Positions 5,153-41,792 of a stretch of DNA of 64,000 nucleotides are shown in pieces. The stretch covers positions 868,001-932,000 of the forward strand of contig NZ_JAVKGN010000001.1 in NCBI RefSeq assembly GCF_031432215.1, read 5' to 3'. The stretch's first letter is position 1; the number at the start of each line of letters is the position of its first letter. The stretch is from Halodesulfurarchaeum sp. HSR-GB. GTDB lineage: Archaea; Halobacteriota; Halobacteria; Halobacteriales; Halobacteriaceae. The notes beneath the pieces were generated by a model. That model was not told the origin of the DNA, searched no databases, and saw only the letters and a list, made by a program, of their open reading frames with translations. The position numbers and the translations under genes are program-made.

Positions 5153-5234
5153 AGTCGGGATACGTGCGGCCGTCAGGAAAGTGTCCGGTTCCTGGTTCGG
5201 TACCTTGAAGCGAGCCGTTCTCGAACGCCCGACC

Positions 5235-7646
5235 ATGGATTACAGCGAGGCGGCGAACTACCTCCTCGGTCTTCGCCGGTTTCGGACCCAACTCGGTACC
5301 GAAGACATCGCCCGGTTTCTGGAGACGGCCGGTAACCCACAGGCTGGCACGGACTTCGTCCAGATCGCCGGCTCGAACGGCAAGGGCAGCACGGCCCGGA
5401 TGCTCGCCTCGGTTCTCCGAGAGGCGGGCCTTGACGTGGGACTCTACACCTCGCCGGACCTGGGGGACGTTCGCGAGCGGGTGCAGGTCAACGGCCGGAA
5501 GATCCCCAAGTCGGCGATCACCGAATTCGTCTCGACGTTCCGCGAGCGCCTGGACAGCGGGGCCGCCCGCTCGGAACCGCTGACTCACTTCGAGGCCCTC
5601 ACTGCCCTGGCGATCTGGTACTTCGGGGAGCGTGACGTGGACGTCGCCATCCTCGAGGTCGGGATCGGCGGGCAGTACGACGCGACGAGCGTCGTCTCGC
5701 CGATCGCGAGTGCGGTGACCAACGTCTCGCTCGAACACACCGACGTGCTCGGTTCGACTCGCGAGGAAATCGCCCGGGACAAAGTTCACGTCGCCCCCGA
5801 GGACGGCCCGCTGGTCACGGCCGCGGATTCGGTCTTCGACACCCTCCGGGAGCATACCGATCTCACCACGGTCGGCTGGGCGGACACGGACGTCGTCGTG
5901 GAGTCCCTCGGTCGGGACGGCTACGAGGCCCAGGAGATCACCGTCCGCGGCGAGGGCCTCGATCTCACGGCTCGAATTCCACACCTCGGTCGCCACCAGG
6001 CCGAGAACGCTGGCGTGGCGGTCGCGCTGGCGAGACAGGTCACCGACGTCGATCCCGACACGATCGCCAGAGGGCTCAGAAAGGCGGCGTGGCCGGGCCG
6101 ATTCGAGGTGATGGAGCAGGACCCGCTCGTCCTCCTGGACGGCGCGCACAACCCTGGCGCGAGCGAGCAACTCGGGTCGGTGCTCACGGACCTGGCCTAC
6201 GAGGACCTCTATCTGGTCTTCGGGGCGATGCACGACAAGGACCTCGGGGCCATGATCGAGGCCCTGCCCCGCCCCACACAGGTCTTTACCTGTCGCCCGG
6301 ATAAGAAGCGAGCCGAGGACGAGCGCGTGCTGGCGAAGGCCTGGGAGGCAGCCGGCGTTGATGCCGTCGAGGCGGTCGGCTCCGTTCTGGGGGGTGTCAA
6401 TCGGGCCATCAACCAGGCCGGTCCCGAGGACGCCGTGGTGATCGCGGGCTCGCTCTACACCGTCGCCGAGGCCCGGCAGCGCTGGGCCCGGACCGTGATC
6501 CCGGTCGACGCCAAATTCGCGAGTGAGGCCGACGGGACCGAACCGCTCGCGGCACTCGACCGCGCGGAACGACCGATCGAGGCGGCCGATCGCCGCTTCG
6601 GGACGGTTCGAACACGGCTCCCACGGGATGGGGCCCGAACGGTCCAGGCAGAGATGTTGCGGGCGGGCGGGGAGTGTGAGATCTCGGCGCTCATCGAGGA
6701 GGCCCGCTTCGTCGATGTCATCCTCTCGGGCACTCGAACCCAGTTCCGGACGCTCTTCGATGCCCTCGAAGACCGGGACTGTTGTCCCACCCTCCCTGCG
6801 GACATCGAAGCCGCACTCGGTCCCACGCCGACCGATTTCCCGGGGCTCGACCCAGCCCACCAGCCCGCCCTGATGGGCATCCTGAACATCACGCCGGACT
6901 CCTTCCACGACGGCGGGGAGTACAACGCCGTCCCGCAGGCCATCGAGCGGGCCGAGAAGCTAATCGAGGACGGTGCCGACATCATCGACGTCGGCGGGGA
7001 GAGTACCCGGCCCGGCGCGGATCCCGTCGAGATTCAGGCGGAGATCGATCGGATCGTCCCGGTCATCGAAGCCTTGCAGGACCTGGACGCGATGATTTCG
7101 GTGGACACACGGAAGGCCGAGGTCGCGACGGCGGCCATCGAGGCCGGTGCGGACATCATCAACGACCAGGACGGCCTGGAAGACCCGGCGCTGCGGGCCG
7201 TCGTCGCCGAACACGACGTGCCGGTGATCCTGATGCACAGCATCAACACGCCGGTCCAGCCCGACGCCGACGTGCCCTACGACGACGTGGTCACGGACGT
7301 CATCGCCGAACTCAAAGAGCGGGTGCTCCTGGCTCGCCGGGCGGGTATCGATCGGGATCAGATCGTCCTCGACCCCGGCATCGGCTTCGGCAAGACCGCA
7401 GCCGAGAACTTCGAACTGCTGGATCGGCTCCACGAGCTGACGGGGTTGGGACTGCCCGTGCTCTTTGCCCACTCACACAAGTCCCTCTTCGCGGACATCG
7501 GCTATGCGGACGGGGATCGACTCCTGCCGACGGTCGTCGCCTCGGCGATGGCGGCCGAACGGGGGGCTGCCGCCTTGCGGGTTCACGACGTCGCCGAGAA
7601 CCTGGCGGCGGTCAAGACGGCCGGCGCGACCGACCGGACGGAGTAG
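5235..7646 (+). CDS. folCP: FolC-FolP fusion: folylpolyglutamate/dihydrofolate synthase plus dihydropteroate synthase
   Basis: An 803-aa two-domain folate enzyme. Residues 1 to about 430 are FolC: an ATP-binding loop GSNGKGS at 46-52 and the LDGAHNPGA block around residue 297. The C-terminal part, from about residue 545, is dihydropteroate synthase, with PALMGILNITPDSF, DIIDVGGESTRPGA, a SVDTRKAEV motif and FAHSHKSLF. A linker of about 100 residues separates them. The ATG at 5235 is chosen because MDYSEAANYLLGLRRF is the natural FolC N-terminus. This fusion is known in haloarchaea. It supplies the (polyglutamylated) folate that the downstream one-carbon genes need. Confidence 0.93.
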   Translation: MDYSEAANYLLGLRRFRTQLGTEDIARFLETAGNPQAGTDFVQIAGSNGKGSTARMLASVLREAGLDVGLYTSPDLGDVRERVQVNGRKIPKSAITEFVSTFRERLDSGAARSEPLTHFEALTALAIWYFGERDVDVAILEVGIGGQYDATSVVSPIASAVTNVSLEHTDVLGSTREEIARDKVHVAPEDGPLVTAADSVFDTLREHTDLTTVGWADTDVVVESLGRDGYEAQEITVRGEGLDLTARIPHLGRHQAENAGVAVALARQVTDVDPDTIARGLRKAAWPGRFEVMEQDPLVLLDGAHNPGASEQLGSVLTDLAYEDLYLVFGAMHDKDLGAMIEALPRPTQVFTCRPDKKRAEDERVLAKAWEAAGVDAVEAVGSVLGGVNRAINQAGPEDAVVIAGSLYTVAEARQRWARTVIPVDAKFASEADGTEPLAALDRAERPIEAADRRFGTVRTRLPRDGARTVQAEMLRAGGECEISALIEEARFVDVILSGTRTQFRTLFDALEDRDCCPTLPADIEAALGPTPTDFPGLDPAHQPALMGILNITPDSFHDGGEYNAVPQAIERAEKLIEDGADIIDVGGESTRPGADPVEIQAEIDRIVPVIEALQDLDAMISVDTRKAEVATAAIEAGADIINDQDGLEDPALRAVVAEHDVPVILMHSINTPVQPDADVPYDDVVTDVIAELKERVLLARRAGIDRDQIVLDPGIGFGKTAAENFELLDRLHELTGLGLPVLFAHSHKSLFADIGYADGDRLLPTVVASAMAAERGAAALRVHDVAENLAAVKTAGATDRTE

Positions 7647-7695: not shown

Positions 7696-9336
7696 TTAGT
7701 CGTCGTCCGTGCCGATGCCGTCACTCGGGTCGATCTGGGACCCGCGCTGGTCGATTTCCTTTTGCGTGAGGAAGACCGGCTTGACGTGACGGAAGGTCCG
7801 GATCGTCGCCCAGACCGCAAGCAGGAGGACGATCGCGAACGGCCCGCCGGTGAGCACGGAGGCGGTCTGCAACGCGTTCCCCCCACCGAAGACCAGGAGC
7901 AGCGCGGCGAGCAGTCCCATCGTCACACCCCAGATGGTGCGGTTGATGGTCGACGGCTTCTCCTTCCCGCCCGTGGTGAGCATGCCCAGCGCGAGCGTGG
8001 AGGAGTCAGCCGAGGTGACGAAGAACGTCGTCACGAGCAGCAGGAACGCGAGCATGAGGAACACGCCCAGCGCCCCTGGAAGCATCGCTTCGAACAGCGG
8101 GTATCCCAGTCCGTCGTACCCGATGTTGTTGTAGGTCTCGACGATCGGGGCCACGCCGTTGTTCTCCATCCAGATGGAGGAGCCGCCGAGCGCGGCGAAC
8201 CACGGGATCGTCACGCCCGTGGAGGCGATCACGCCAGTACCGACCATCTGTCGGACCGTCCGACCACGCGAAATGCGGGCGATGAACAGGCCGACGAACG
8301 GGGCCCACGCGAACCACCAGGCCCAGTAGAACACGGTCCAGGCAGCCGGGAACCCGGCCGGACTGAGGCCCGCGGAGTTCGTGAACGTACTAACTGCGAT
8401 GAAGTTGTTGACGTACTGACCGACTGCGTCGGCACCCAGATCGAGGATGTACGCGGTCGGGCCGAAGATGAAGGCCACCGCCATCAGGAAGAAGAACACC
8501 ACCATGTTGAAGTTCGAGACCCGCTTGATGCCCTTTTCGACCCCTAACGCAGCGGAGAGGGTGAAGGCCACGGTCAGGCCCGTAACCATCAGTATGGTGA
8601 GCATGTCCGTCGTCTGGATGCCGAAGATGTAGTTCAGGCCACCCAGGAACTGGCCACCGACGAACCCGAGCGAGGTCGCGATGCCACCGATGGTGGCGAA
8701 CACGCCCGTGATGTCGATGACTTTCGGCAGCCAGCCGTCGAGGTTGTCAGTGCCGAGGAACGGCGCGAGCACCGTCGAAACGCGGAGCGGTGCGCCGTAT
8801 CGGTAGGCGAAGAAGGCGATCGGCAGCGCCAGCAGCACGTAGAAGGACCACGCGGAGATCCCCCAGTGGAAGAACGTGTACGACACCGCGTCTACGGCGG
8901 CTGCAGGCGTGCCGGCTTCTGCAGTACCAGCGAGCGGGCTGTTCGCCGGCGGCGCGTAGAGCGTGTAGTGGGAGACGGCCTCCGCGGGCCCCCAGAACAC
9001 GATCCCCGCCGCGATGCCCGCCGAGTAGAGCATCGCGAAGTAGGACTTGAAGGAGTGTTCCGGGTCCTCGTCGGGCTTGCCGATCCGAATATTGCCCCAC
9101 GGGCCCAAGAGCAAGAAGAGCCCGAAGACCACCAGGAAGAAGCCAACCAGCAGGTAGGCCCATCCTAGGGACGAGGTCATCCAGCTAAACGCGTTGTTGA
9201 TGAAGTTTCTCGAAGCATCCGGCGAAAGCACTAACGCGACAATCGCCAGGAGGGATACTCCGAGGCCGATGCTGTACACCACCGGGTCGAGTTCGTCGAA
9301 GAACGTACCGATTGCACCCTTGTTTCCTGTACTCAT
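7696..9336 (-). CDS. BCCT-family transporter (glycine betaine/choline/carnitine type)
   Basis: A 546-aa carrier with about 12 hydrophobic segments. The BCCT signature is clear: the aromatic motif WAWWFAW at 338-344 followed by APFVGLFIARISRGRT, which in relatives forms the box that binds the trimethylammonium group. In the third membrane segment the glycine motif reads GIAAG (107-111) instead of the GMGIG of BetP. The short acidic C-tail has no long basic osmosensor helix. It likely imports a quaternary amine such as glycine betaine. It sits directly downstream of the corrinoid protein on the same strand, which suggests its substrate is catabolised and not only stored. Confidence 0.9.
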   Translation of the reverse strand: MSTGNKGAIGTFFDELDPVVYSIGLGVSLLAIVALVLSPDASRNFINNAFSWMTSSLGWAYLLVGFFLVVFGLFLLLGPWGNIRIGKPDEDPEHSFKSYFAMLYSAGIAAGIVFWGPAEAVSHYTLYAPPANSPLAGTAEAGTPAAAVDAVSYTFFHWGISAWSFYVLLALPIAFFAYRYGAPLRVSTVLAPFLGTDNLDGWLPKVIDITGVFATIGGIATSLGFVGGQFLGGLNYIFGIQTTDMLTILMVTGLTVAFTLSAALGVEKGIKRVSNFNMVVFFFLMAVAFIFGPTAYILDLGADAVGQYVNNFIAVSTFTNSAGLSPAGFPAAWTVFYWAWWFAWAPFVGLFIARISRGRTVRQMVGTGVIASTGVTIPWFAALGGSSIWMENNGVAPIVETYNNIGYDGLGYPLFEAMLPGALGVFLMLAFLLLVTTFFVTSADSSTLALGMLTTGGKEKPSTINRTIWGVTMGLLAALLLVFGGGNALQTASVLTGGPFAIVLLLAVWATIRTFRHVKPVFLTQKEIDQRGSQIDPSDGIGTDDD

Positions 9337-9372
9337 GTGTGTGTGTTATCGTTACCCATCCGTTGGTTGTGG

Positions 9373-9398
9373 GTCCGATACGCACTAACGATACGGAC
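9373..9398. promoter_or_regulatory. Candidate operator in the BCCT leader
   Basis: The arms GTCCG and CGGAC enclose two copies of CGATACG spaced 13 bp apart. The element lies just downstream of the TATA-like box at 9411-9420, near the expected transcription start, a usual place for archaeal repressors to bind. An ACGATACG copy also occurs in front of the mttB homologue (31786-31793). Confidence 0.3.
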
Positions 9399-9410
9399 GA
9401 GGGGTTATGA

Positions 9411-9420
9411 AATTATTTAT
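9411..9420 (-). promoter_or_regulatory. TATA-like box for the BCCT gene
   Basis: Read on the minus strand the box is ATAAATAATT, about 75-84 nt before the start codon. This implies a leader of about 50 nt, longer than most haloarchaeal transcripts, and leaves room for the candidate operator at 9373-9398. Confidence 0.4.
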
Positions 9421-9524
9421 TCCTTTTTCGTCATTATCGAACGCAGAAAGCTACCCCTACCCGTATTCGGGAAGTTTTGCCACTGACACGATATTAAAAG
9501 CTGCCGGTAAAACCAAGAACTGCG

Positions 9525-10199
9525 CTATTCCGCGAGCAGCGCAATCGCTTCCTGAACGGCCGCGTCGGCGTTGTCCGCATAGCCGTCAGCGCCGATCTCG
9601 TCCCGCCACTCCTCGGAGGTCGGCGCCCCGCCGACCATTACCTTCACGTCGTCGCGAAGGCCCTCCTCTTCGAGCAGTTCGACGACCTCTTCCTGGTGGT
9701 CCATGGTCATCGTCATCAGCGCGGACATGCCCAGAATGTCCGGGTCCTCCTCCCGGACGGCCTCGACGAAGTCCTCGTTCGGGATCTCGACGCCCAGGTC
9801 GATGACGTCGAACCCGTTTGCCTTCAGCATCGTGATCAGAATGTTCTTCCCGATGTTGTGGATGTCCTCGTCGACGGTTCCGATGACGACCTTGCCGGCC
9901 GTGTCCTCGTCGCCAAGGTCCATCTCGTCCAGCAGCGGCTCGACGAGTTCGACGCCGGCTTTCATGCAGTCCGCGGACATGGCGAGTTCGGGCAGGAAGA
10001 CTTCCCCGCGGCCGAACTTGTCACCGACGGTCCGAACGCCCTCGGTCAGGCCCTCCTGGAGGATGACGAGTGGATTGAGGTCCTTGTCGATGGCCTCCTG
10101 AGTGAGTTCTGCCGTCTTGTCCTCCTCGAGGTCGATGATCGCCTGCTGGATGTCCTCGATGATGGGGTCGAGATCGTCGGCTGAGTCCTCGTCTGTCAT
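9525..10199 (-). CDS. Corrinoid protein of the methylamine/betaine methyltransferase type (MttC/MtgC-like)
   Basis: A 224-aa two-domain methyl carrier. Residues 10-95 form the helical cap domain (B12-binding-2 type) with the LNPLVILQEGLTEG and FLPELAMSAD blocks. The C-terminal Rossmann domain carries GTVDEDIHNIGKNI, the DxHxxG motif whose His114 is the lower axial ligand of cobalt, followed by GFDVIDLGV and VMVGGAPTS. It would accept a methyl group from an MttB-type methyltransferase (30303) and hand it to the MtrH homologue (18949). A TATA-like box, read CTTTATTCTC on the minus strand, lies at 10231-10240. MtaC/MtbC-type partners are alternatives, but MttB is the only substrate methyltransferase of this class in the window. 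Confidence 0.92.
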   Translation of the reverse strand: MTDEDSADDLDPIIEDIQQAIIDLEEDKTAELTQEAIDKDLNPLVILQEGLTEGVRTVGDKFGRGEVFLPELAMSADCMKAGVELVEPLLDEMDLGDEDTAGKVVIGTVDEDIHNIGKNILITMLKANGFDVIDLGVEIPNEDFVEAVREEDPDILGMSALMTMTMDHQEEVVELLEEEGLRDDVKVMVGGAPTSEEWRDEIGADGYADNADAAVQEAIALLAE

Positions 10200-10404
10200 G
10201 TGAATCCCTAACTGAATAGCTCGCTGTTGTGAGAATAAAGGTTATGGAAATCTCCCCCAACCATTCCGAAACTGATGCTTCGAAAACCGCCAGTACCTCT
10301 ATTTTCAGGCCATTTCCGTGCCGAATCCGAGAAACCAAATCAAGAATTAACTAGTTCAATTCAGGTTGTAAAATGAACTTTCATTAGAAAAAACGGGTTT
10401 TCAA

Positions 10405-12174
10405 TTAGGCCCGGTTCACGGACGGGAGCAGTGCTCCGAGGTCGAGTGCGTCAAGCGTCTCCCGGGTTGGGACGCCGCGTTCGTCCCAGCCCCGCTGCTC
10501 GTAGTAGGCACTTCGCATCGCTTCGAACTCCGGCTGGGAGATCTGCTCTCCGGCCCCCGGGCCGTCGGTGATCGGCTCTTCGAGTACCGGCGGGAGCGTG
10601 TCGTCGTCCCGGTCGAAGCCCTCCCGGACGTTGAACAGGCGAGTCAACGTCCAGATGCGGGTCCCGGCCCGTCTGAGCGCTGTGGGAGTGAGCTCCAGGC
10701 CGACCGCCGCGAGCCACTCCGCCCCGAAATCCGTGGTGTACAGCGTCTCGGTGAAGTCATCGGCGATCAGGCTCCAGAGCAGTGAGCGGTAGTCCTGTTC
10801 GGCGATGACTTCCCGGGCCCGCCGAGTCGGCTCGTCGAGGTCCGGCTCGAAGACGGCCGTCTCGATGGGTCGGGCCCGGCGGTGGCAGGCTCCCCGGTCA
10901 CTGGTTGCGTAGGCCAGCGCCATGCTCGGTGCCCGTCGGGGGTCATAGGACGGCAGTTCCATCCCCTTGACCGTCGGGATCAGATCCTCGCCGCCGTAGG
11001 CCGCGGCGGCGGCGTCGATGCCGTCTGCCAGGGTGGCACCAAGCTCCGTCTCCCGGGCCGCGATCGCCTCGGCGAGTTCGATGGCGGATTCGATATCTCC
11101 GAACTCGCCCGCATAGTCGATCACGCCTTCCTCGCCGGCCCGGATGGCCCAGGCGATGGCGTTTCCCACGCCGATGATGTCCACCCCGAGGCGGTCACAC
11201 GTCAGTCCGAGGGTCGCCACGTCTTCGAAGTCATCAATTCCGAGTCCCGCGCCCAATGTCATCTGCGTGCCCCCGCGTGGGGTACTTTCGCCCTCTTCGA
11301 ACGAGACCGTGAACCCGCCGGGAATCGCTTCCCCCTCGTGTTCGCGCTCGTAGTCCGTCGCCTCCACGGCCTCGATGCCGATTTCGTCTGTGCCCTCGAA
11401 GGTGCTCTCCTGCCAGCCGCGGGTCGAGAGGGCCCCGATCTCGTCGGCGAAGTCCACGGACTCCACCGTCTCGCTGGCCCGGTGCCAGTCGTCGGTCGGC
11501 CCGTCGCCGAACCGTTCCTCGTACTCGGTCCGGAGGTCGTCCAGTCCGGAGACTGGCTCGTCGGCCGCGATCACGGCCTTGAGCCGTTTCGATCCCATGA
11601 CGGCCCCTGCACCGCCCCGGCCGGCGTGGTGATCGCCGCCGTCGGAGGCGATTGTCGCGTAGACCACCTCGTTCTCCCCGGCTGGGCCCGTGCAGGCGAC
11701 CGCCGCGTCGGAGTGGGTGGCACAGGCGGCTTCCACGCCCTCGCCCCATGCCGTGGCCGGTTCGATGGACACGTTCCCGTCGGAGACGACCAGGGAAACC
11801 GGCTCTGGCGCCTGGCCAGTCACGATGATCCCCATCGTCTCGCCGAGGCTGCCGGCCAATCTGGCGGCAAAATCACCGCCGCTGTAGGAGTCCAGAAAGG
11901 TCCCGGTCAGCGGCGACTTGGTGATCGCCGCGTAGCGTGGCTCCCCCGGGATCAGTCCCGAGAGGGGGCCGACCATGAACAGCAGCGCGTTCCCCGGGGC
12001 GAGCGGGTCGACGCCGGGGTCGGTTACTTCGTGGAGGTATCTCGCGCCCAGGCCTTTCCCGCCGATGTACTGCCGGCGCCACTGCTCGGGGATCGGCTCC
12101 CGGCGCACGTTCCCGTCGGTCAGGTCAACTCGAAGGATGGCCGTTCGACGGGGCGGGGCTCTCTCCGTCGTCAC
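10405..12174 (-). CDS. Aldehyde ferredoxin oxidoreductase family protein lacking the [4Fe-4S] cysteines
   Basis: A 589-aa AOR-family protein from a GTG start at 12174 (VTTERAPPRRTAILRVDLTDG). The 88 in-frame residues upstream have no family look. Bis-pterin-binding features are present: GGKGLGARYL, RYAAITKSPLTG, ACTGPAGEN, the GRGGAGAVMGSKRLKAV stretch, CDRLGVDII and DRGACH. Where typical AORs have CxxCxxxC, this protein reads IPGGFTVSFEE, and the distal LC(L/K)F cysteine is replaced in SLIADDF. All four ligands of the [4Fe-4S] cluster are therefore missing. It may use another electron acceptor or have lost redox activity. It sits just upstream of the corrinoid-protein gene on the same strand, with a 205-bp gap. 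Confidence 0.8.
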   Translation of the reverse strand: MTTERAPPRRTAILRVDLTDGNVRREPIPEQWRRQYIGGKGLGARYLHEVTDPGVDPLAPGNALLFMVGPLSGLIPGEPRYAAITKSPLTGTFLDSYSGGDFAARLAGSLGETMGIIVTGQAPEPVSLVVSDGNVSIEPATAWGEGVEAACATHSDAAVACTGPAGENEVVYATIASDGGDHHAGRGGAGAVMGSKRLKAVIAADEPVSGLDDLRTEYEERFGDGPTDDWHRASETVESVDFADEIGALSTRGWQESTFEGTDEIGIEAVEATDYEREHEGEAIPGGFTVSFEEGESTPRGGTQMTLGAGLGIDDFEDVATLGLTCDRLGVDIIGVGNAIAWAIRAGEEGVIDYAGEFGDIESAIELAEAIAARETELGATLADGIDAAAAAYGGEDLIPTVKGMELPSYDPRRAPSMALAYATSDRGACHRRARPIETAVFEPDLDEPTRRAREVIAEQDYRSLLWSLIADDFTETLYTTDFGAEWLAAVGLELTPTALRRAGTRIWTLTRLFNVREGFDRDDDTLPPVLEEPITDGPGAGEQISQPEFEAMRSAYYEQRGWDERGVPTRETLDALDLGALLPSVNRA

Positions 12175-12579
12175 GCCTGTCGATAACAGAGTCGGGTTCA
12201 GAAGTCCACCGGTTTCGGCCAGTCCCGCGGCATCGCCGGTCGCTGGAACCGATAGTTTTTTGCTGATGGCCTTTTCTCGTCTTTTGATATGTTGGGCCGA
12301 TTTCCCGTTCCCATCTCGGTTGGCGGACGGCGGCCGAATCGGCTCGTCGGCACGACTACCGCGGACCTGTAGTACTGGTGACCTATTCGCCCCTCCGCAG
12401 TCATGCGGTTTTCCATAGCGTGAAACGCCGACCGCCATTTGATGGCATCGATATTTTATACATGGTTTTTCATCGACTTCGTTAGTTATATGTGCTAAGT
12501 CTGCTAGAAGAACTGTTGTGGGGCCGGTTCACACCCTCGCGAAGCGCGGATCGAACGTGGACACCCCGAGGTACAATAA
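12175..12579. other. Divergent intergenic region between the AOR homologue and the dehydrogenase gene
   Basis: About 400 bp without a convincing gene. AT-rich boxes at 12449-12460 (GATATTTTATA type) and 12483-12491 (TAGTTATAT type) are possible promoter elements for the plus-strand dehydrogenase gene, implying a leader of 60-100 nt. On the minus strand the reading frame of the AOR homologue stays open to 12438, so a longer AOR start cannot be fully excluded. Confidence 0.4.
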
Positions 12580-15120
12580 ATGAGTTCGAACAACCTACCC
12601 GACAGCGCCGGTACGGTAATTATCGGCGCCGGTATTGTGGGGAACAGTCTCGCATACCATCTCGCAGACCAGGGCGTTGAAGATATCCTCCTCGTCGACA
12701 AGGGACCCCTCCCGGACCCCGGCGGATCGACGGGTCACGCGTCGAACTTCCTGATGCCGGTCGAGCACTCCAAGGAGATGACCGAACTCTCCTATGACTC
12801 GATCGAGCAGTACAAGGAAGCCGGCGTGTTCACCCGCTCCGGTGGGCTCGAAGTCGCTCGCTCCGAGGAGCAGATGGAGGAGAACAAGCGACGAGTGCAG
12901 TCCGCGAAGGCCTACGGCGCCAGTGCCGAGGTCATCGACGCCGAGGAAGTCAAGGAGATGGTGCCCTACATCAACGAGGACATTATCAAGGGCGCCATGT
13001 ACTGTGAGGACGCCGGTGTGTGTGACTCCCTCCAGTTCGGCGAGATCTGCCGCGAGCGCGCCAAGGACATGGGTGCGCTGACGGTCTCCCCGAACACGGA
13101 GGTCACGGACATCTTCACAGAGGGCGACACCGTCACCGGGATCGAGACCGACCGCGGTGACGTCGAAGTCGAGGATACCCTCATCATCGCCGCCGGTCTC
13201 TGGAGCCCGAAGCTGGCCGAGATGGCCGGCACGCGCATCCCGCTGAAGCCGGCCGTCCACCAGATGATCTCCGTCGGCCCCATCAAGCAGTTCGAAGAGC
13301 GGGGCGTCGAGGGCATCGAGGACCCGATCGTTCGGGACATGGACCACCGCGAATACGAGCGCCAGCACGGCAGCGAGATCGAGGTCGGTTCCTACTCCCA
13401 CCGCCCGATGCTGTGGGACATCGAAGACGTGCCCTCCATCGACGAGGCACCGCTCTCCCCGACCCAGCCGCCGCTGACTGACGAAGCCTTCGAGGCGTCC
13501 ATGGAGCACGCCCTCGAGCTTATGCCCGAGATCCTGGACGACCCCGACGCGGGGATCCGTCACTCGATCGACGGCCTGCTCTCGATGACCGCCGACGGTG
13601 GCCCCGTCGTCGGTCCGGTCAAGGACCTCGACAACCTGTGGTCCGTGGCCGCCATCTGGATCAAGGAGGCCCCCGCCATCGCGAAGGAAGTCGCCCGCTG
13701 GATGACCGAAGGCTACGGTGCCATCGACACGGACCTCGAAGGCATCAACATCGCCCGCTACGACGAGTACGGGCGGGCCGAGCGCTACGTCGAAGAGCGC
13801 TCCAAGGAAGGCTTCCGCAAGATCTACGGCACGGTTCACCCCAAAGAGCAGTGGATGTCCTCCCGTCCGCTCCGGACGACGGGCTTCCACGACCGCCTGG
13901 AGGAGCACGAGGCCGAGTTCTGGGAATCCGCCGGCTGGGAACGGCCGCGCTGGTTCCGTGAGAACGCGGACCTCCTGCAGGAGTACCAGGAAACCATCAG
14001 CGAGTTCCAGCGTCCCAACGAGTGGGACCGGCGCTGGTGGTCCCCGATCATCCTGGCCGAGCACCTGCACATGCGTGACAACGTCGGCCTGATCGGCGAC
14101 ATGGGCTTCGGTATCTACGAGTTGCAGGGCCCCGATGCCCTGGAGATGGCCGAGAAGCTCACCGTCGGCCGCATGGATGTCGACGTGGGCAGCCTGGTCT
14201 ACACCCCGGTGCTCGACGAGGACGCCGGCTTCCGTGCTGACCTGACTGTCGTGCGTCTCGGCGAGAACAAGTTCCGCTTTGTCACTGGTGGCGGCGACGC
14301 CGGCCACGACAAGCAGTGGATCCGCCAGCACATGGAGGACGACATGGATGTCGAGCTCGTCAGCAAGAGCTCCGCTCTGGGCACGATGGGTGTCTGGGGT
14401 CCGAACGCCCGGAAGGTCATGCAGGAGGTCACCGAGGAGGACATGTCCGACGAGGCCTTCCCGGCCTACACGGCCCAGGAAGTCCACATCGGTGACGTCG
14501 AGGCCTTCGCGATGCGTATCTCCTATGTCGGCGAACTCGGCTGGGAGATCTACGCCCCGATGGAGCAGACCGGTCGCCTCTGGGACACCATCTACGAGGC
14601 CGGTCAGGAGTACGACCTCCGTCCGGTCGGGACGGGTGTCTACGGCTCCACCGGTCGCATGGAGAAGGGCTACCGCCTGATCGGTGCCGAACTCGAGCAC
14701 GACTACAACCCGGTCGAGGCTGGCCTGGACTTCCACGGTGTCAAGGACGCCGACTTCATCGGCAAGGACGCCTACGTGGAAGCAGTCGAGAGCGAGCCCG
14801 CCGCGAAGCTCTGCACCCTGGCCGTGACCGACCACGCCCCGAACGGTGGCGAGGAGCGCTACCCGCTCGGCGGCGAGCCGGTCAAGGACCTCGACGGCAA
14901 CGTGCTTATCGACGACGAGGGCCGCCGCTCGTACACCACGAGCGCCGCGACGGGCCCCTCGGTCGGCAAGCACATCATGCTGGCATACATCCCGACGGAT
15001 ATCGCAGAGGAAGGCAAGGAGCTGCAGGTCGAGTACTTCGGCGAGGACTACCCGGTCGAGATCGTTCGCGTCGGCAGCAAGCCGCTCTTTGACCCGAGCA
15101 ACGAACGGATCCTGAGCTAA
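12580..15120 (+). CDS. Dimethylglycine/sarcosine dehydrogenase-like flavoprotein with folate-binding GcvT domain
   Basis: An 846-aa fusion. Residues 10 to about 400 are a DAO-type FAD domain: TVIIGAGIVGNSLAYHL (dinucleotide fold) and GSTGHAS, where His53 matches the residue that carries covalent FAD in dimethylglycine oxidase and dehydrogenase. The C-terminal half is a GcvT/aminomethyltransferase-type domain (about residues 430-846) that in relatives binds tetrahydrofolate and captures the released methyl as 5,10-methylene-THF. The genes for ETF beta and alpha follow at 70 bp, so electrons probably go to ETF and not to oxygen. Dimethylglycine or sarcosine, the products of betaine demethylation, are the likely substrates. 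Confidence 0.88.
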   Translation: MSSNNLPDSAGTVIIGAGIVGNSLAYHLADQGVEDILLVDKGPLPDPGGSTGHASNFLMPVEHSKEMTELSYDSIEQYKEAGVFTRSGGLEVARSEEQMEENKRRVQSAKAYGASAEVIDAEEVKEMVPYINEDIIKGAMYCEDAGVCDSLQFGEICRERAKDMGALTVSPNTEVTDIFTEGDTVTGIETDRGDVEVEDTLIIAAGLWSPKLAEMAGTRIPLKPAVHQMISVGPIKQFEERGVEGIEDPIVRDMDHREYERQHGSEIEVGSYSHRPMLWDIEDVPSIDEAPLSPTQPPLTDEAFEASMEHALELMPEILDDPDAGIRHSIDGLLSMTADGGPVVGPVKDLDNLWSVAAIWIKEAPAIAKEVARWMTEGYGAIDTDLEGINIARYDEYGRAERYVEERSKEGFRKIYGTVHPKEQWMSSRPLRTTGFHDRLEEHEAEFWESAGWERPRWFRENADLLQEYQETISEFQRPNEWDRRWWSPIILAEHLHMRDNVGLIGDMGFGIYELQGPDALEMAEKLTVGRMDVDVGSLVYTPVLDEDAGFRADLTVVRLGENKFRFVTGGGDAGHDKQWIRQHMEDDMDVELVSKSSALGTMGVWGPNARKVMQEVTEEDMSDEAFPAYTAQEVHIGDVEAFAMRISYVGELGWEIYAPMEQTGRLWDTIYEAGQEYDLRPVGTGVYGSTGRMEKGYRLIGAELEHDYNPVEAGLDFHGVKDADFIGKDAYVEAVESEPAAKLCTLAVTDHAPNGGEERYPLGGEPVKDLDGNVLIDDEGRRSYTTSAATGPSVGKHIMLAYIPTDIAEEGKELQVEYFGEDYPVEIVRVGSKPLFDPSNERILS

Positions 15121-15190: not shown

Positions 15191-15946
15191 ATGGAAACAT
15201 TAGCCTGTATCAAACGCGTCGCTGACACCGGGGCGGAGATCGTACTGACGGATGACAAGCAGTCGGTGGACGCCTCCGCCGTGGGGTACACGATGGGTCC
15301 CCACGAGGAGTGTGCCATCGAAGCGGCTGTCCAGGTCGTCGAGGAGGAGGGTGGCGAATCCACCGTCCTGAGTCTCGGCCCCGAGGACACGGAAGACCAG
15401 CTTTACGAAGGAATCGGTCGCGGTGCCGACAACGGCGTCCTCCTGGAGACGGCGGGCGGCGACTGGGGGCCGGAGTCCACGGCGACGGCCATCGCCGACG
15501 CCATCGAGGGTGACCTCGCGGACTTCGACCTCCTCTTCTTCGGCAACGAATCGGGCGACAACGCGAACTACCAGGTCGGTATTCGCGTGGCCCACGAACT
15601 CGATCTGCCGGTCGTCACCGGTGCGAAGGACCTCGAGATCGACGGTGACACGGCGATCGTCAAGCGTGACGTCCCCGGCGGCTCGGAGGTCTTCGAGGTC
15701 GAGACTCCGGCCGTCGTGACCGTCAAGGAGGGCCTGAACACGCCGCGCTACCCGTCGATGCGGAGCCGGATGCAGGCCAAAAAGCAGGAGATCCAGACGA
15801 TCGACCCCACGGAGACCGACGACCGGCTCCAGATGGTCGAACTGGAGACTCCGGAAGCCGAGGACAGCGAGGCAGAAGTCCTCGGCGAGGGCCCGGAAGC
15901 GGTCGACGAAGCGGTCGAAGTCATGGAAGAACTGGAGGTGCTCTAA
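15191..15946 (+). CDS. etfB: Electron transfer flavoprotein, beta subunit
   Basis: A 251-aa EtfB/FixA-family protein. It begins METLACIKRVADTGAEI and contains the ETF-beta blocks VLSLGPEDTEDQLYEGIGRGAD, FFGNESGDNANYQVG and the RYPSMRSRMQAKK segment near residue 195. The C-terminus is a long acidic tail. The stop codon is directly followed by the etfA start codon at 15947, so the two subunits are translationally coupled. Its place behind the dehydrogenase gene makes it the likely first electron acceptor of that enzyme. No ETF:quinone oxidoreductase gene lies in the window, so the onward route to the membrane is not shown here. Confidence 0.93.
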   Translation: METLACIKRVADTGAEIVLTDDKQSVDASAVGYTMGPHEECAIEAAVQVVEEEGGESTVLSLGPEDTEDQLYEGIGRGADNGVLLETAGGDWGPESTATAIADAIEGDLADFDLLFFGNESGDNANYQVGIRVAHELDLPVVTGAKDLEIDGDTAIVKRDVPGGSEVFEVETPAVVTVKEGLNTPRYPSMRSRMQAKKQEIQTIDPTETDDRLQMVELETPEAEDSEAEVLGEGPEAVDEAVEVMEELEVL

Positions 15947-16912
15947 ATGGTACTGACACTCATCGAACACGCCGACGGCGAGATCGACGAGACGTCCCTG
16001 GAGATGCTTACCCTCGCCCGGGACCTGGCCGAGCAGGTCGGCGAGGACGTGACTGCGGCGATGTTCGGCGGCGAGGATCTGGCTGCCGATCTCGGCGAGT
16101 ACGGCGTCGACACCGCCTACGTCTGTACGGGCGATCTCGCGGAGACCTACGCCCCCGAGGCCCGCGCCGAAGCCCTCGGTGCGCTCTGTGACGATCTCGA
16201 ACCCGCCGCCGTCTTCGGCGGCGGCACGGACACCGCAAACGAGGTCCTGGCCCACCTCGGGGCCAAGCGGGACCTCCCGATGTCCGCCAACACGACGGAG
16301 ATCGAGACGGACGGCGAGACCTGCGAGATCGAGCGCCACCGCTGGGGTGGCAGCCTCATCGAGCACGCCACGATGGAAGGCGAGACGAAGCTGTTCACCA
16401 CGCCCGACCACGAACTCCCGATCGAGGCCGTCGGCGACGGCGAGGCCGCCGTCGAGACCCTCGAGCCCGAACTCAGCGAGGGTGCCTGGGAGGTCCAGGT
16501 CGACCGCTTCGAGGAGTCGGACCTGGAGGGTGTTCCGCTCCCCGAGGCCCGCATCGTCGTCGGTGGCGGTCGCGGTGTCGGTGGCGAGGAGGACTTCGAA
16601 CAGCTCGAAGAACTGGCTGACCTGTTCGACAACGCCACGGTCGGCGCGACCCGGATCGCCGTCGACGAAGGGTGGCGGCCGCACAACGACCAGATCGGCC
16701 AGACCGGGCAGAAGATCGCGCCCGAACTGTACATCGCCGCCGGCATCAGTGGGGCCGTCCAGCACTGGGTCGGCGCCAAAGGGTCGGAGAACGTCCTCGC
16801 GATCAACACCGATCCCGAGGCCGCGATCATGTACAAGGGCGATTACGCGATCGTCGGCGACCTCCACGAGGTCGTCCCCGAGCTGATCGACGCCGTCGAA
16901 GCCGCGAAGTAA
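15947..16912 (+). CDS. etfA: Electron transfer flavoprotein, alpha subunit
   Basis: A 321-aa EtfA/FixB-family protein. The C-terminal FAD-binding domain is complete: IVVGGGRGVGG, ATRIAVDEGW, QIGQTGQKIAPELYIAAGISGA and the INTDPEA segment. The N-terminal domain (residues 1-190) matches the structural half shared with EtfB. The gene follows etfB without a gap and ends before a T-rich tract at 16926-16938. It has no extra iron-sulfur domain of the kind seen in some bifurcating ETFs, which argues for simple electron carriage from the flavoprotein dehydrogenase. Confidence 0.94.
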   Translation: MVLTLIEHADGEIDETSLEMLTLARDLAEQVGEDVTAAMFGGEDLAADLGEYGVDTAYVCTGDLAETYAPEARAEALGALCDDLEPAAVFGGGTDTANEVLAHLGAKRDLPMSANTTEIETDGETCEIERHRWGGSLIEHATMEGETKLFTTPDHELPIEAVGDGEAAVETLEPELSEGAWEVQVDRFEESDLEGVPLPEARIVVGGGRGVGGEEDFEQLEELADLFDNATVGATRIAVDEGWRPHNDQIGQTGQKIAPELYIAAGISGAVQHWVGAKGSENVLAINTDPEAAIMYKGDYAIVGDLHEVVPELIDAVEAAK

Positions 16913-16998: not shown

Positions 16999-17874
16999 CT
17001 ACGGCAGTTCGACTTCGACGTCGTTCTGGAGGCCCGCGGCCTTGACCGTGTTGTAGAGCAACATCGTGATCGTCATCGGGCCCACACCGCCCGGCACGGG
17101 GCTGATGGCGTCGACGACGTCTTTGGCGGACTCGAACTCGACGTCACCGACCAGTTCACCGTCCACGCGGTTGGTCCCGACGTCGATGACCGTCTGGCCC
17201 TCCGAGAGCATCGAGCCGTCGATCATCTCCGGGACGCCGGCGGCCGCGATGACGATGTCGGCGTTCTTGGTCTTCTCCTCGAGGTTCTGGGTCCGGGAGT
17301 GACAGACCGTGACGGTGGCGTTGCCGTTCTCGGTCTTCTGCATGAGCAGGTTCGCGACCGGCTTGCCGACGATGTTCGAGCGGCCGACGACGGTGACGTC
17401 CTTGCCCTCGGTGTCCACGCCGGCGTCCTCGATCATCTTGATGACGCCGTGGGGCGTACAGGGCTTGAAGCGGGCGTTGCCCGTGACCATCCGACCGACG
17501 TTCTCCGGGTGGAACCCGTCGACGTCCTTCATCGGGTCGATCTCGTTGAGGACCCGCTCCTCGTCGACGTGATCGGGTACCGGTAGCTGGACGAGGATGC
17601 CGTGCACTTCGGGGTCCTCGTTCAGGTCCTCGATCGTGTCGTAGAGCTCCTCGGCCGGCGCTTCGGGATCGATCTCGACGTGGAAACTCTCCATCCCGAT
17701 CTCTTCACAGGCCTTCTGTTTCATCGAGACGTAGGTCTCACTTGCGGGGTCGTCGCTCATCAGGACCGTCGCGAGGCCGGGTGTGATGTCCTCGTCCGTG
17801 AGTGTTTCGACGCTGTCTTCGAGATCAGCGCGAATCGAGTCCGCGAGTTCGTTACCGTCAATAATGTATGTCAT
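16999..17874 (-). CDS. folD: Bifunctional methylene-THF dehydrogenase/methenyl-THF cyclohydrolase
   Basis: A 291-aa enzyme that interconverts 5,10-methylene-THF, methenyl-THF and 10-formyl-THF. It starts MTYIIDGNELADSIR at the ATG at 17874; 34 further in-frame codons upstream do not fit the family. Hallmarks are present: YVSMKQKACEEIGM with the catalytic Lys, VQLPVPDHV, the DVDGFHPENVGR block, CTPHGVIKMIE, VVGRSNIVGKPVANLL for the cofactor and the C-terminal PVPGGVGPMTITMLL. It is divergent from the metF-like gene with 138 bp between starts, a good position for shared regulation of the folate branch. Confidence 0.95.
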   Translation of the reverse strand: MTYIIDGNELADSIRADLEDSVETLTDEDITPGLATVLMSDDPASETYVSMKQKACEEIGMESFHVEIDPEAPAEELYDTIEDLNEDPEVHGILVQLPVPDHVDEERVLNEIDPMKDVDGFHPENVGRMVTGNARFKPCTPHGVIKMIEDAGVDTEGKDVTVVGRSNIVGKPVANLLMQKTENGNATVTVCHSRTQNLEEKTKNADIVIAAAGVPEMIDGSMLSEGQTVIDVGTNRVDGELVGDVEFESAKDVVDAISPVPGGVGPMTITMLLYNTVKAAGLQNDVEVELP

Positions 17875-18012
17875 GGTTCGACCGTGCGTTCGATAGGTTC
17901 CCTCGAAAGCACCTTGAGGTTTTCTAGAACGACTCGCCAGCCGCACATGAATACCCCCTAAACTTCGGCAGTGCAAAGAGTGAAAGCCGTGTGCCGGCTA
18001 TCATGGGTACAC

Positions 18013-18843
18013 ATGACACAGGATCCAGTTCGCGATCTCCTGGCCGATCCGCACTTCGAGTTGCTACCCTTCGCCGGGCTCTTCGACCAGGCGGCGGCGC
18101 TTCCCGAGGGCTCGACCGTTGCGCTCACTGCCTCGCCGGACAAGGGTGTCGACGAGACGGTGGAACTCTCGACCGAACTGGCGGATCGCGGCTTCGAGGT
18201 CTCGGCCCACATCGCGGCCCGGGCGGTCCGGAGTGACGAGCATCTGGAGACGATCGCCGAGACGCTTCTGGACGCTGGGGTCGAGGACATCTTCGTTCCC
18301 GGCGGTGACAACGAGACGCCTGAGGGCCCTTACGACTCCGCCTATGCCCTGCTCTCGGACCTCGAGGAGATGGAGTACGAGTTCGAGCGGGTGGGCATCA
18401 CCGGCTATCCGGAGGGCCACCAGTTCATCGACGACGACACGCTCCGGGAACACCTCCTGAAAAAGGAGCCGTACGCGGACTACATCGTCACCCAGATGAC
18501 TTTCGACCCGGACGCAGTGGCCGAGTGGGCGCTGGAGATCCGTGAGGACGACGTCGAACTCCCGATCATCGTCGGGGTTCCGGGCGTGATGAAATACCAG
18601 CGCCTCCTGAGCATCTCCCGGGAGATCGGGGTCGGCGATTCACTCTCCTATCTCCGCAAGACCACCGGCGTGTTTGACTTCATCAAGCAGTTCCTGGGAT
18701 CCCGCGGGCAGTACGCGCCCGATGACTTCATCCAGGGGATCGGGGAGTACTACGCGGATGACAGCTACGGCATCGAGGACGTCCACCTGTACACGTTCAA
18801 CCAGGTCGGGGACACCGAAGCCTGGCGTCAACAGTACCTCTAA
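18013..18843 (+). CDS. metF: Methylenetetrahydrofolate reductase-like protein
   Basis: A 276-aa MetF-type beta/alpha-barrel protein. It shows VALTASPDKGVDETVELS, a GFEVSAHIAARAV block, DIFVPGGDNETPEGPYDSA, VGITGYPEGH, YIVTQMTFDPDAV and LPIIVGVPGV, which line up with the substrate and flavin sites of MTHFR-like proteins. It is a little shorter than the bacterial enzyme and has no partner such as MetV beside it. The ATG at 18013 is chosen because MTQDPVRDLL begins the conserved part. It would link methyl-THF and methylene-THF; here oxidation of methyl-THF is likely. It shares an upstream region with folD and precedes the mtrH-like gene. Confidence 0.85.
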   Translation: MTQDPVRDLLADPHFELLPFAGLFDQAAALPEGSTVALTASPDKGVDETVELSTELADRGFEVSAHIAARAVRSDEHLETIAETLLDAGVEDIFVPGGDNETPEGPYDSAYALLSDLEEMEYEFERVGITGYPEGHQFIDDDTLREHLLKKEPYADYIVTQMTFDPDAVAEWALEIREDDVELPIIVGVPGVMKYQRLLSISREIGVGDSLSYLRKTTGVFDFIKQFLGSRGQYAPDDFIQGIGEYYADDSYGIEDVHLYTFNQVGDTEAWRQQYL

Positions 18844-18948: not shown

Positions 18949-19857
18949 ATGTTCACCTTCGAGGCCGAGCAAGAGGTCTATGACGTCAACGGGACGAAGA
19001 TGGGCGGACAACCCGGCGAGACGCCCACGCTGATGGTCGGCAGCATCTTCTACAAGGGAGACAAGGTCCAGGAGAACCCCGAGACCGGCGAGTTCGACGA
19101 GGAGGCAGCCCGAGAGGCGGTCAAAAACGTCGAGGAACTCTCCGAGAAGACGGGCAACCCGGCCGCCTTCGACACGATCGGTGACTCCCCCGAGGCCCTG
19201 AAAAAGCACATCGAGTTCATGGCCGACGTCACCGACGCGCCGATCTTCATGGACGGTCCGACCCCGTCGATCCGCGCCGAGGCCGCGAAGTTCGCCGGCG
19301 AGATCGGCATCGAGGACCAGATCATCTACAACTCCATCGAGTCCTCCACCAAGCAGGTCGACGAGGAGATCGAGGCCATCCAGGAGTCCGGCATCAACAG
19401 CGCGGTCCTGCTCTCGATCGACACGACGGACATGTCCATCGACGGTCGCCGGAACGCGCTGGACGAGAACCTGGAGGTCGCCGAGGAGGCCGGCATCGAC
19501 CAGCCGATCGTCGACCCCGGCATCATCGACATTCCGGACTCGGGCTACGTCGCGAAGATCATCCACGAGCTCAAAAACGAGTACGGCATCCCGATGGGCT
19601 GTGCGCCCCACAACGAGGTCATCCAGTGGGAGATGAACGACCCGCTCGTGGAGAACTCCCGACAGCTCCGGCAGGCTGTGGCCAACTCGGTCATCGTCCA
19701 CCTCGGTGCTGACTTCAACATCTACGGTCCGGTCCACGGGGCCGCCGAGATGTACGAAGTCATGTCCACCGCCGACGCCTACGTCGCCTACGGCGCGCAG
19801 ATGGGTGAGGGTCGCCGCGCGGACACCGACCACCCGCTGTTCAAGATCTTCCGGTAA
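18949..19857 (+). CDS. MtrH/MtgA-like methyl-corrinoid:tetrahydrofolate methyltransferase
   Basis: A 302-aa protein of the MtrH family, with a pterin-binding TIM barrel. Readable blocks are MFTFEAEQEVYDVNGTKMGG, TPTLMVGSIFY, FMDGPTPSIRAEAAK, NSIESSTKQVDEEIEA, GCAPHNEV, and HLGADFNIYGPV. In methanogens MtrH moves methyl groups to and from methanopterin; in betaine-using bacteria the relative MtgA uses THF. Haloarchaea use folate, so THF is the probable partner. It has no other Mtr subunits near it, so it is not part of the membrane Mtr complex. The ATG at 18949 is preferred over the adjoining TTG at 18946. Confidence 0.9.
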   Translation: MFTFEAEQEVYDVNGTKMGGQPGETPTLMVGSIFYKGDKVQENPETGEFDEEAAREAVKNVEELSEKTGNPAAFDTIGDSPEALKKHIEFMADVTDAPIFMDGPTPSIRAEAAKFAGEIGIEDQIIYNSIESSTKQVDEEIEAIQESGINSAVLLSIDTTDMSIDGRRNALDENLEVAEEAGIDQPIVDPGIIDIPDSGYVAKIIHELKNEYGIPMGCAPHNEVIQWEMNDPLVENSRQLRQAVANSVIVHLGADFNIYGPVHGAAEMYEVMSTADAYVAYGAQMGEGRRADTDHPLFKIFR

Positions 19858-19898: not shown

Positions 19899-21851
19899 TC
19901 AGTCCTCGGACTCCGCCGCTTCGAGCCTGGCGGCTTCGAGTTCGCGCCGCCGCATGACCTTCTCCTTGACGTGTGGGTACAGATCGAAGTCCTGGTGAGG
20001 GAGATACATCGACTCCATGAAGTTCTCCTGGAAGACATCTGTCCCGGCGATCTCGAAGTACTCGACCTCGTCGACGATGCGCTCGGCCTCGGCCCGTCGC
20101 TCCTTGTCGAGGAGTGCCAGCTTCGCCCCCACGCCGGCGGCGTTGCCAAGTGAGACCACGTCGTCCGGGTCGATGTCGGGATACATCCCGATGGTCATCG
20201 CGGAGTGTTTGTCGATGTAGTTCCCGAAGGCCCCGGCCATCAGCACTCTGTCGGGGTTCTCGATGTCCAGTTCGTCCATCAGGACCCGCGTTCCGGCCTG
20301 GATCGCGGCCTTTGCCATCTGGATCGAGCGGATGTCGTTCTGGGTCAGCACGATGTCCTCGGCCAGGGCGGCCTCCTTCTCGTAGGCCACGACGTACTCG
20401 AGTTCCCCGTCGTCGTTCTCTCTCACTCGCTGGTGATCGAGTACCTCGTCCCGGAACTTCCCGCGCTGATCCACGAGGCCGACCTCGAAGAGCTGAGCGA
20501 GCGCGTCGATCACGCCCGAACCGGTGATACCGTTTGGCGGCTCGTCGTCGATGGTCTCATAGGTCGGATCGAGCGTTTCGGGGTCGATCCGCAGGGTCTC
20601 GATCGCGCCGGACTGGGCGCGAACCCCATAGCGCAGTTCCGCCCCTTCGAGGGCGGGCCCGGCCGGGGCGGAGGTCACGAGCATCTCCTCGTCGTTGCCG
20701 ACCGAGATCTCCCCGTTGGTCCCGATGTCGATACAGACGGTGGTCGGGGACTCCTTGTAGTGCCCCGAAACGAGGAGGACCGAGACCTTGTCCGGGCCGA
20801 CCCAGCCGCCACTCACGGGCAGCCAGTAGACATAACCCGCGTCGTTGATGTCGATGCCCAGTTCCCGGGCCTTCACGGCGATCGGGGCCTCGCGGGCGGC
20901 GACGTAGGGCGACCCGGCCACGTAGGTCGGGTCGATGCCCAAAAAGAGGTGATGCATCGCCGTGTTGCCCACGAAGACACTCTCGTAGATGTCCTCGCGA
21001 TCGATGCCGGCCTCCTGGATGACCTCCTCGATGGTCTCGTTGATCCCCGTGCGGATCTCCTCCTTGAGTGTCTCCCGCCCGTCGTCGTTCCGGCGGGTGT
21101 ACCGCATCCGGGTCATGATGTCCCCGCCCTGCTTGGTCTGGGGGTTGAGCTGTGAGCTGATCGCCTCGGTCTCCCCGTTTTTCAGGTTCACCAGGTAGGT
21201 CGCGACCGTGGTGGTCCCGATGTCGATCGCCAGCCCGTAGGCGGTCTCGGAAAGCCCCGGCTCGACGTCGATGATCTCCTGATCGTCATAGACCGTCGCG
21301 GTGACCTCCAGCCGGTCTTCGGTCTCTTCGGCCCGCATCTGGTTCGGCAACTCCCGCTGGATCTCGTAGTCGACGTCCTCGATGTCGATCTCGTAGGTGT
21401 CCGCCAGGGCTTCCCCGATCCGCTCGAAGTCCGCGACGTTGTCAGAGAGTGAGGGGACCGGCAGGTCGACGTGGTACTTCTTGACCAGCGGGTCGATGGC
21501 ATATTCCAGTTCTTGGCCCTCCGTGAGGACGATCCCGGCGGTCTTCTGAGAGTCCGGTGGCACCGTCACGGAGACCTCGCCCGGGTCGCTGACCTTGGCC
21601 CGACAGGTGAGTCGATAGCCGTTCCCCAGTTGCTCCGAGGAGAGGGTCTGTTCCTCGGCGGTGGTGATCGGCGTGAGGTGTTCTTCGCCCTCGCCGATAA
21701 TCGCCTTGCAAGTCCCACACCGGCCGTTGCCGGCACAGAGTCCTTCGATGCTCACGCCGGCGTCTTCGGCCGCATTGAGCAAGGTGGTGTCCGGTTCCAC
21801 GTCGATCGTCTTCTTCCAGGGATAGAACGTGACCCGCGCCTCCTCGGACAT
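19899..21851 (-). CDS. RACo-like ATP-dependent reductive activator of corrinoid proteins
   Basis: A 650-aa protein. An N-terminal [2Fe-2S] ferredoxin domain has Cys39, Cys45, Cys48 (CAGNGRCGTC) and Cys83. A linker is followed by an ASKHA-type ATPase domain with GLAIDIGTTTVATYLV, VCIDIGTNGEI and a C-terminal GAFGNYIDKHSA block. RACo proteins reduce accidentally oxidised Co(II) corrinoid back to Co(I) at the cost of ATP, so this protein should serve the corrinoid protein encoded at 9525-10199. The ATG at 21851 gives the natural start MSEEARVTFYPWKK. It is convergent with the mtrH-like gene. Confidence 0.92.
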   Translation of the reverse strand: MSEEARVTFYPWKKTIDVEPDTTLLNAAEDAGVSIEGLCAGNGRCGTCKAIIGEGEEHLTPITTAEEQTLSSEQLGNGYRLTCRAKVSDPGEVSVTVPPDSQKTAGIVLTEGQELEYAIDPLVKKYHVDLPVPSLSDNVADFERIGEALADTYEIDIEDVDYEIQRELPNQMRAEETEDRLEVTATVYDDQEIIDVEPGLSETAYGLAIDIGTTTVATYLVNLKNGETEAISSQLNPQTKQGGDIMTRMRYTRRNDDGRETLKEEIRTGINETIEEVIQEAGIDREDIYESVFVGNTAMHHLFLGIDPTYVAGSPYVAAREAPIAVKARELGIDINDAGYVYWLPVSGGWVGPDKVSVLLVSGHYKESPTTVCIDIGTNGEISVGNDEEMLVTSAPAGPALEGAELRYGVRAQSGAIETLRIDPETLDPTYETIDDEPPNGITGSGVIDALAQLFEVGLVDQRGKFRDEVLDHQRVRENDDGELEYVVAYEKEAALAEDIVLTQNDIRSIQMAKAAIQAGTRVLMDELDIENPDRVLMAGAFGNYIDKHSAMTIGMYPDIDPDDVVSLGNAAGVGAKLALLDKERRAEAERIVDEVEYFEIAGTDVFQENFMESMYLPHQDFDLYPHVKEKVMRRRELEAARLEAAESED

Positions 21852-21988
21852 GTCTTGTCTATGGTACACGATGCCTATACAAAAGGGAATTGAAGGAAGT
21901 CCTTTTGGCCCGTAGTCGTGGGTAGATCGTGGTGTTGGACCGATTCGAAATGTGAACCCTCAAGGCCGCTCCGGGCGGACCCCCCACG

Positions 21989-24997: not shown

Positions 24998-25398
24998 GTT
25001 CGCTGGTTTTCGACGTACTCTTTCAACACATCCAGTGAGACTTGTCCAGTCGAGATGAGACAGTACGAGTCGTTCCAGAATGAATCGCCCCACAGGTCGG
25101 TTTTGAGTTCATCTTCGTACTCGTTGCGGATGCGTCGAGCAGTCGCACCTTTGACGGTGTTGATGAACTTCACGAGGTCTGTGGTTGGTTCAGCCCGGAA
25201 CAGGATGTGAACGTGGTCGTCTTCACCGTCGAGATTGGTCAGTGTGACACCATACTTGTCCGCGAACCCCTCGATGACCCCGCGAATAAATTGGGTTCGC
25301 TCCTCGGTGAGCACACCACGCCGATACTTGGTGGTGAGTATCAGGTGGTAGTGGAGTGAATACACCGAGTGTGCTCCCGTGTCGAGGTCGTACTCCAT
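24994..25398 (-). CDS. tnpA: TnpA, Y1-type transposase of an IS200/IS605 element
   Basis: A 134-aa HUH single-strand transposase. The metal-binding HUH motif reads DHVHIL near residues 61-66, and the catalytic tyrosine is in the C-terminal helix KEYVENQ. The first part, SLHYHLILTTKYRRGVL, is the family-typical start. The length is normal. The end of the gene overlaps the tnpB start by 4 bp, so the two are translated together. The enzyme cuts and rejoins single-stranded ends at subterminal hairpins and makes no target duplication. Confidence 0.95.
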   Translation of the reverse strand: MEYDLDTGAHSVYSLHYHLILTTKYRRGVLTEERTQFIRGVIEGFADKYGVTLTNLDGEDDHVHILFRAEPTTDLVKFINTVKGATARRIRNEYEDELKTDLWGDSFWNDSYCLISTGQVSLDVLKEYVENQRT

Positions 25399-41757: not shown

Positions 41758-41792
41758 AGACCCAAGTTGCTATACTACAATGAGTGATTCAA

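Follow-up and report, generated by a model that had tools for sequence, protein, structure and literature searches.

A 64,000-nucleotide stretch of the Halodesulfurarchaeum sp. HSR-GB genome (hereafter the window) carries, at positions 10405–12174 of the minus strand, a gene for a 589-residue protein, here called AORX, which by its Pfam domains, alignment and structural model has the fold of the aldehyde ferredoxin oxidoreductases (AORs) and is devoid of the ligands of their [4Fe-4S] cluster. A Pfam scan matched the protein to AFOR_N (1.9e-60) and AFOR_C (2.2e-93) only, with no domain of the FdhD family (PF02634), and an Rfam scan of positions 9300–13000 gave no match. Solved AORs align with AORX over the full length, the homology starting at about residue 12 of the GTG-start form, and an upstream ATG at 12438 is a possible alternative start. 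The AlphaFold2 model of AORX (mean pLDDT 92.6) could be superimposed on the Pyrococcus furiosus AOR (PfAOR; PDB identifier 1aor) with a Z-score of 48.3 and a root-mean-square deviation (RMSD) of 2.0 Å over 569 residues, and on the P. furiosus FOR (PDB identifier 1b25) with a Z-score of 48.8. Its domains and predicted fold place AORX within the family of AORs and tungsten-containing oxidoreductases (WORs).

The AOR family has two pterin-binding motifs, DxxGLD and DxxGLC, and the ligands of its [4Fe-4S] cluster follow the spacing CxxCxxxC, which is also visible in the alignment of AORX with PfAOR. The family is described as holding one such cluster on the CxxCxxxC motif and a distal Cys, and T243, E313, Y427 and H448 are named as its catalytic set (PMC13328260). 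Residue numbers are those of PfAOR unless stated otherwise, the numbering having been verified against 1aor. In the window's AORX, C288, C291, C295 and C494 are all missing, which confirms what the earlier note on this DNA had proposed. An alignment of 69 AORX and 59 other AOR-family sequences reveals that none of the former has a Cys at any of these positions, while 58 of the latter keep all four; the single exception is a thorarchaeotal AOR (L066, positions 5154–6968) with an Asp at the first cluster position. No Cys is found anywhere in the 280–303 block of the 69 sequences, and the 485–500 block has one in 18 of them, never at 494. Substitute ligands elsewhere in the protein, which the earlier note had named as grounds for dropping its claim, were rejected as only C161, C326 and C430 are conserved; several members possess a total of three Cys in the whole protein, and a four-Cys cluster elsewhere is therefore excluded for these. 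Three other sequences (L071–L073) seemed to lack the Cys in an early alignment, and this reading was dropped when a better alignment showed them to be kept.

The changes go beyond those in the earlier note. The catalytic Glu313 is absent from all 69 sequences, being replaced by Ala, Ser or Gly, and the E311-Y312 pair has become Arg-Gly in nearly all of them. In place of N93 there is Tyr, most sequences have His-His for R182 and A183 (with Gln for the latter in three), and the second pterin motif is replaced, with Trp for D489 and Asp for C494. The catalytic residues T243 (68/69), Y427 (68/69) and H448 (69/69) are retained, as is most of the first pterin motif, with D343 invariant and position 338 occupied by Asp in 57 sequences and Asn in 12. 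The supposition that the pterin-binding blocks are kept thus holds for D338 and D343 and fails for N93, R182/A183, D489 and C494. Going by the PfAOR structure, it is the cluster-facing half of the cofactor site that has been rebuilt, the other half being retained. Since several replacement residues are fixed (H182, G312, W489, D494), the pocket seems to have been remodelled and not lost. AORX shares with the P. furiosus AOR and FOR, which belong to WOR Class I, the whole fold together with T243, Y427, H448 and D343, but lacks their cluster ligands and E313 and has the second pterin motif replaced; judged by these residues, it should not be named an aldehyde ferredoxin oxidoreductase.

The loss of the cluster ligands, which the earlier note had suggested might recur in a clade, defines a single haloarchaeal clade comprising all 69 sequences. 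In a 76-sequence tree, built by a quick method with SH-aLRT supports and no bootstrap, AORX forms one clade (40 rows, SH-aLRT 100), the sister of which is another haloarchaeal group of 11 rows (SH-aLRT 100; L117, L119–L124, L150 and L152–L154) with 43–47% identity to AORX. Seven inspected members of the sister clade have Tyr93 and His182-His183 in common with AORX but keep all four Cys and E313, and formate dehydrogenase (FDH), YqeC or MobA is found in none of seven examined neighbourhoods. Because AORX forms one clade and its sister keeps the cysteines, the tree indicates that the cluster was lost once, a single change being sufficient. Within the clade, 145 of 589 positions are identical in at least 34 of 35 members, including the replaced positions C295 and C494. 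The ratio of nonsynonymous to synonymous substitution rates (dN/dS) is 0.089 between the window's AORX and its 97%-identical relative in a congeneric genome (L005 in G027) and 0.20–0.34 for three other pairs, and the clade is under purifying selection. The G027 relative shows identical residue losses, and this together with its low dN/dS excludes a sequencing error, the other ground on which the earlier note would have withdrawn its claim. Relatives outside the order were sought among 294 genomes of the phylum (partly overlapping the order set), and the three copies that were fetched and inspected, including the best-scoring match (G573, 43%), all keep CxxCxxxC. Apart from a single relative in the same genus, with 80% identity, a scan of genome contigs with peptide patterns, which reach close relatives only, matched AORs other than AORX.

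AORX is present in about half of the genomes of the order (205/392), as counted from 211 genomes with matches at E ≤ 1e-80 minus six that have the sister type only; the best score of the sister-type copies was 3.1e-138, and 32 genomes were searched again. YqeC, found in 254 of the 392 genomes, occurs in 203 of the 205 with AORX as against 51 of the 187 without it. Type A or type B FDH, the latter called at E ≤ 1e-175 so that nitrate reductases were excluded, is encoded in 193/205 and 38/187 genomes, respectively. Type C FDH was searched for in 80 genomes (all 12 AORX genomes without type A or B, and 68 of the 187 AORX-free ones), and upon including its fused form the AORX genomes with FDH rise to 203/205. 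The four AORX genomes in which YqeC or FDH is missing are rated 70–89% complete. AORX occurs in 106 of the 109 genomes with type A FDH and in 87 of the 122 with type B but not type A. Fisher tests of the co-occurrence give p-values of 8e-56 and 5e-59, which ignore shared ancestry and are not to be taken as probabilities. The pattern recurs within one genus (g2), where all seven AORX genomes have YqeC and FDH, and where YqeC and all three FDH types (A, B and C) are missing from five AORX-free genomes (G012, G049, G056, G107 and G141); G160, which has FDH and lacks both AORX and YqeC, is an exception.

AORX is likewise coupled to FDH, YqeC and MobA in gene clusters. We compared 41 neighbourhoods, namely 40 fetched loci (about 9 kb on each side) chosen for diversity from listed coordinates and not at random, and positions 2000–24000 of the window, a segment that ends before the window's two FdhA genes (26015 and 32298). 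FdhA lies near AORX in 31 of these, YqeC in 23, MobA in 17, an Hdr-like polyferredoxin protein and DUF7124 in 16 each, and a TorD-like chaperone in 14. None of 17 control loci around sister or canonical AOR genes, three of which end at contig ends (L192, L194 and L196), has any of the labelled partner families. DUF7124 follows AORX at its 3' side on the same strand, with an overlap of 4–11 nt, in all 16 loci that have it (L076, L078, L080, L082, L085, L089, L090, L093, L095, L096, L104, L108, L109, L111, L113 and L114); type A (or A2) FDH is also present in 15 of these 16. In four loci, FdhA is a same-strand neighbour within 150 nt of AORX. The AORX loci span three FDH architectures, viz., type A with FdhB and a TorD-like protein, the short type B, and the fused type C with a NuoF-like gene.

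In the window itself, AORX lies in a near-complete gene set (7696–34343) for oxidising the methyl groups of glycine betaine or of a compound like it. On the minus strand, a betaine/choline/carnitine transporter (BCCT; 7696–9336) is followed by a corrinoid protein of the MtgC/MtbC type (9525–10199), which is separated from AORX by a gap of 205 nt. Beyond AORX are a DAO and GCV_T fusion resembling dimethylglycine/sarcosine dehydrogenases (12580–15120, plus strand), which by gene order appears to correspond to HTSR_1750 of PMC5437934, EtfB and EtfA (15191–16912, plus), FolD (16999–17976, minus), an MTHFR-like protein (17971–18843, plus), an MtrH-like methyltransferase (18949–19857, plus) and a corrinoid reductive activator of the AcsV/RACo type (19899–21869, minus). 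These are followed by YqeC (22999–23727, plus), the order-wide partner of AORX, whose model is that of a SIMIBI-like P-loop NTPase and whose gene is adjoined by an IS200/TnpB-type element (23729–25398). Two FDH alpha genes, both exceeding the TIGR01591 cut-off (26015–28087 and 32298–34343), a formate-tetrahydrofolate ligase (28242–29966) and an MttB-family methyltransferase (30303–31766), all on the minus strand, complete the set; type I restriction-modification genes lie further along, at 38900–44762. From its gene content, the set reads as an oxidation of betaine-type methyl groups to formate and CO2 with FDH as the last step, and the position of AORX in the window would be explained by FDH ending this gene set. 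The words "betaine" and "corrinoid" do not occur in the main text of PMC5437934.

The same paper reports that Halodesulfurarchaeum oxidises formate and has two FdhA genes, both cytoplasmic and located near each other, which by gene content and order appear to be the two of the window. FdhD-like proteins are described as binding bis-molybdopterin guanine dinucleotide (bis-MGD) and acting as chaperones in FDH maturation (PMC6239281), and in Methylorubrum a MoeA1-MobB-MobA-FdhD route is reported to load tungsten (PMC13197769). Searches with PF02634, which matched 8 of 14 control genomes, did not find FdhD in any of 24 haloarchaea (the window's genome and 23 others), though many of them have FDH, and a TIGR00129 search of the window's genome up to an E-value of 10 did not find it either. 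Since formate oxidation is reported for Halodesulfurarchaeum and no FdhD was found, the making of FDH seems to proceed with no recognisable FdhD.

The window's YqeC exceeds the TIGR03172 cut-off and in this resembles the YqeC of selenium-dependent molybdenum hydroxylases; the context described for the latter is that of purine hydroxylases, with an uncertain role (PMC11448449), whereas in haloarchaea YqeC tracks FDH, being present in 226 of the 231 genomes with type A or B FDH. Fold comparison of the YqeC model with SIMIBI NTPases gave middling scores, with FtsY/SRP, MeaB, HypB and MinD all among the matches (FtsY, PDB identifier 2j7p, Z-score 12.5, RMSD 3.3 Å over 175 residues; MeaB, 8dpb, 10.2, 3.4 Å over 161 residues; HypB, 2hf8, 10.1, 3.6 Å over 160 residues). 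Neither a Foldseek search with the model, at a threshold of E 0.001, nor a sequence search of solved structures yielded a match.

Our tentative reading, to which we assign nearly even chances, is that AORX has left electron transfer and become an FDH-linked cofactor-handling factor, which would assist in the making of FDH instead of oxidising aldehydes. AORX shows the coupling to FDH, at the level of both genomes and gene clusters, that is expected of an FDH maturation factor, and from this association we infer its function; such a factor would also be expected to bind bis-MGD and to be needed for FDH activity. Most likely, AORX would hold a pterin metal cofactor, or an intermediate or precursor of it, and then pass it on. 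MobA, as the guanylylating enzyme, and YqeC, as an NTPase whose predicted fold is akin to that of cofactor-loading GTPases, may act before or at the hand-over, and apo-FDH would thereby receive its tungsten or molybdenum (W/Mo) cofactor in lineages with no detectable FdhD. We further infer that the pterin cofactor is still bound and handed over by AORX, and that its metal is tungsten. The proposed task of holding a cofactor and delivering it to FDH is that described for the bis-MGD chaperones FdhD and FdsC (PMC6239281), which differ from AORX in belonging to a separate family, PF02634. A bolder version, in which haloarchaea lost FdhD and a tungsten oxidoreductase became the W/Mo-bis-MGD carrier for FDH alongside the YqeC NTPase and the MobA guanylyltransferase, is conceivable but on the whole doubtful.

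Several observations weigh against a cofactor-handling role. The genome counts are non-independent events, and the second pterin motif is lost, so cofactor binding could be absent altogether. Six of the 41 AORX loci have no partner gene, and in the window the nearest FdhA is about 14 kb from AORX. Type C FDH was found in its fused form in six of the 68 AORX-free genomes in which it was looked for, and 32 of them contain split relatives, which are candidate FDHs only. Six of the 23 other haloarchaea, all six with YqeC, have FDH without AORX and without detectable FdhD, and AORX can consequently not be the sole substitute for FdhD; as type A or B FDH is encoded in 38 AORX-free genomes, these six among them, AORX is not required for every FDH.

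Tracking of FDH across genomes and residence in FDH gene clusters would also suit a pseudoenzyme that belongs to the FDH complex as a structural or regulatory subunit and carries no cofactor, but the three FDH architectures and the nearby MobA and YqeC are more readily explained by an accessory common to all of them than by a subunit confined to a single complex, and we regard such a subunit as unlikely, if worth keeping in mind. The earlier note had argued that a protein without the cluster must use another electron acceptor or have a new role. A new role is supported by the loss of Glu313 along with the cluster and by the tracking of FDH by the clade, and another acceptor finds no support. 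An active W/Mo-pterin enzyme without the cluster, catalysing a non-redox reaction or passing electrons straight to a flavoprotein, would account for the metal-near residues T243, Y427 and H448, the first-motif residue D343 and the purifying selection; it is rather improbable given that no member retains E313 or the second pterin motif and that nearly all have lost E311-Y312, and given that no redox-partner gene is steady, electron transfer flavoprotein genes being near in the window but the partners across the 41 loci being FDH and cofactor genes. AORX adjoins a corrinoid protein gene (MtgC) in the window and in L075, from which a part in corrinoid methyl metabolism might be supposed, as in the earlier note; these are the only two such loci among the 41 and both are from one genus, making this part very improbable, and the link to methyl metabolism survives via FDH as the last step of the window's methyl-oxidation genes. 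Loss of all cluster ligands would on its own permit decay, but the notion of a decayed or mis-sequenced AOR is refuted by the 69 sequences, their fixed replacements and dN/dS values of 0.09–0.34.

According to a 2026 classification (PMC13328260), the residues for cofactor and cluster hardly vary across the family, and the [4Fe-4S] cluster is the defining feature of Class I. AORX departs from this rule in roughly half of the haloarchaeal genomes studied here. We found no report in the PMC open-access literature of a cluster-less AOR clade or of an AOR in haloarchaeal FDH maturation. Metabolic models would be misled if AORX were annotated as an "aldehyde ferredoxin oxidoreductase". The finding also raises the question of how formate-oxidising haloarchaea mature their FDH without detectable FdhD, for which AORX, YqeC and DUF7124 are candidates that can be tested in genetically tractable haloarchaea. 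If the bolder version is true, an enzyme fold would have been turned into a cofactor chaperone that serves another enzyme.
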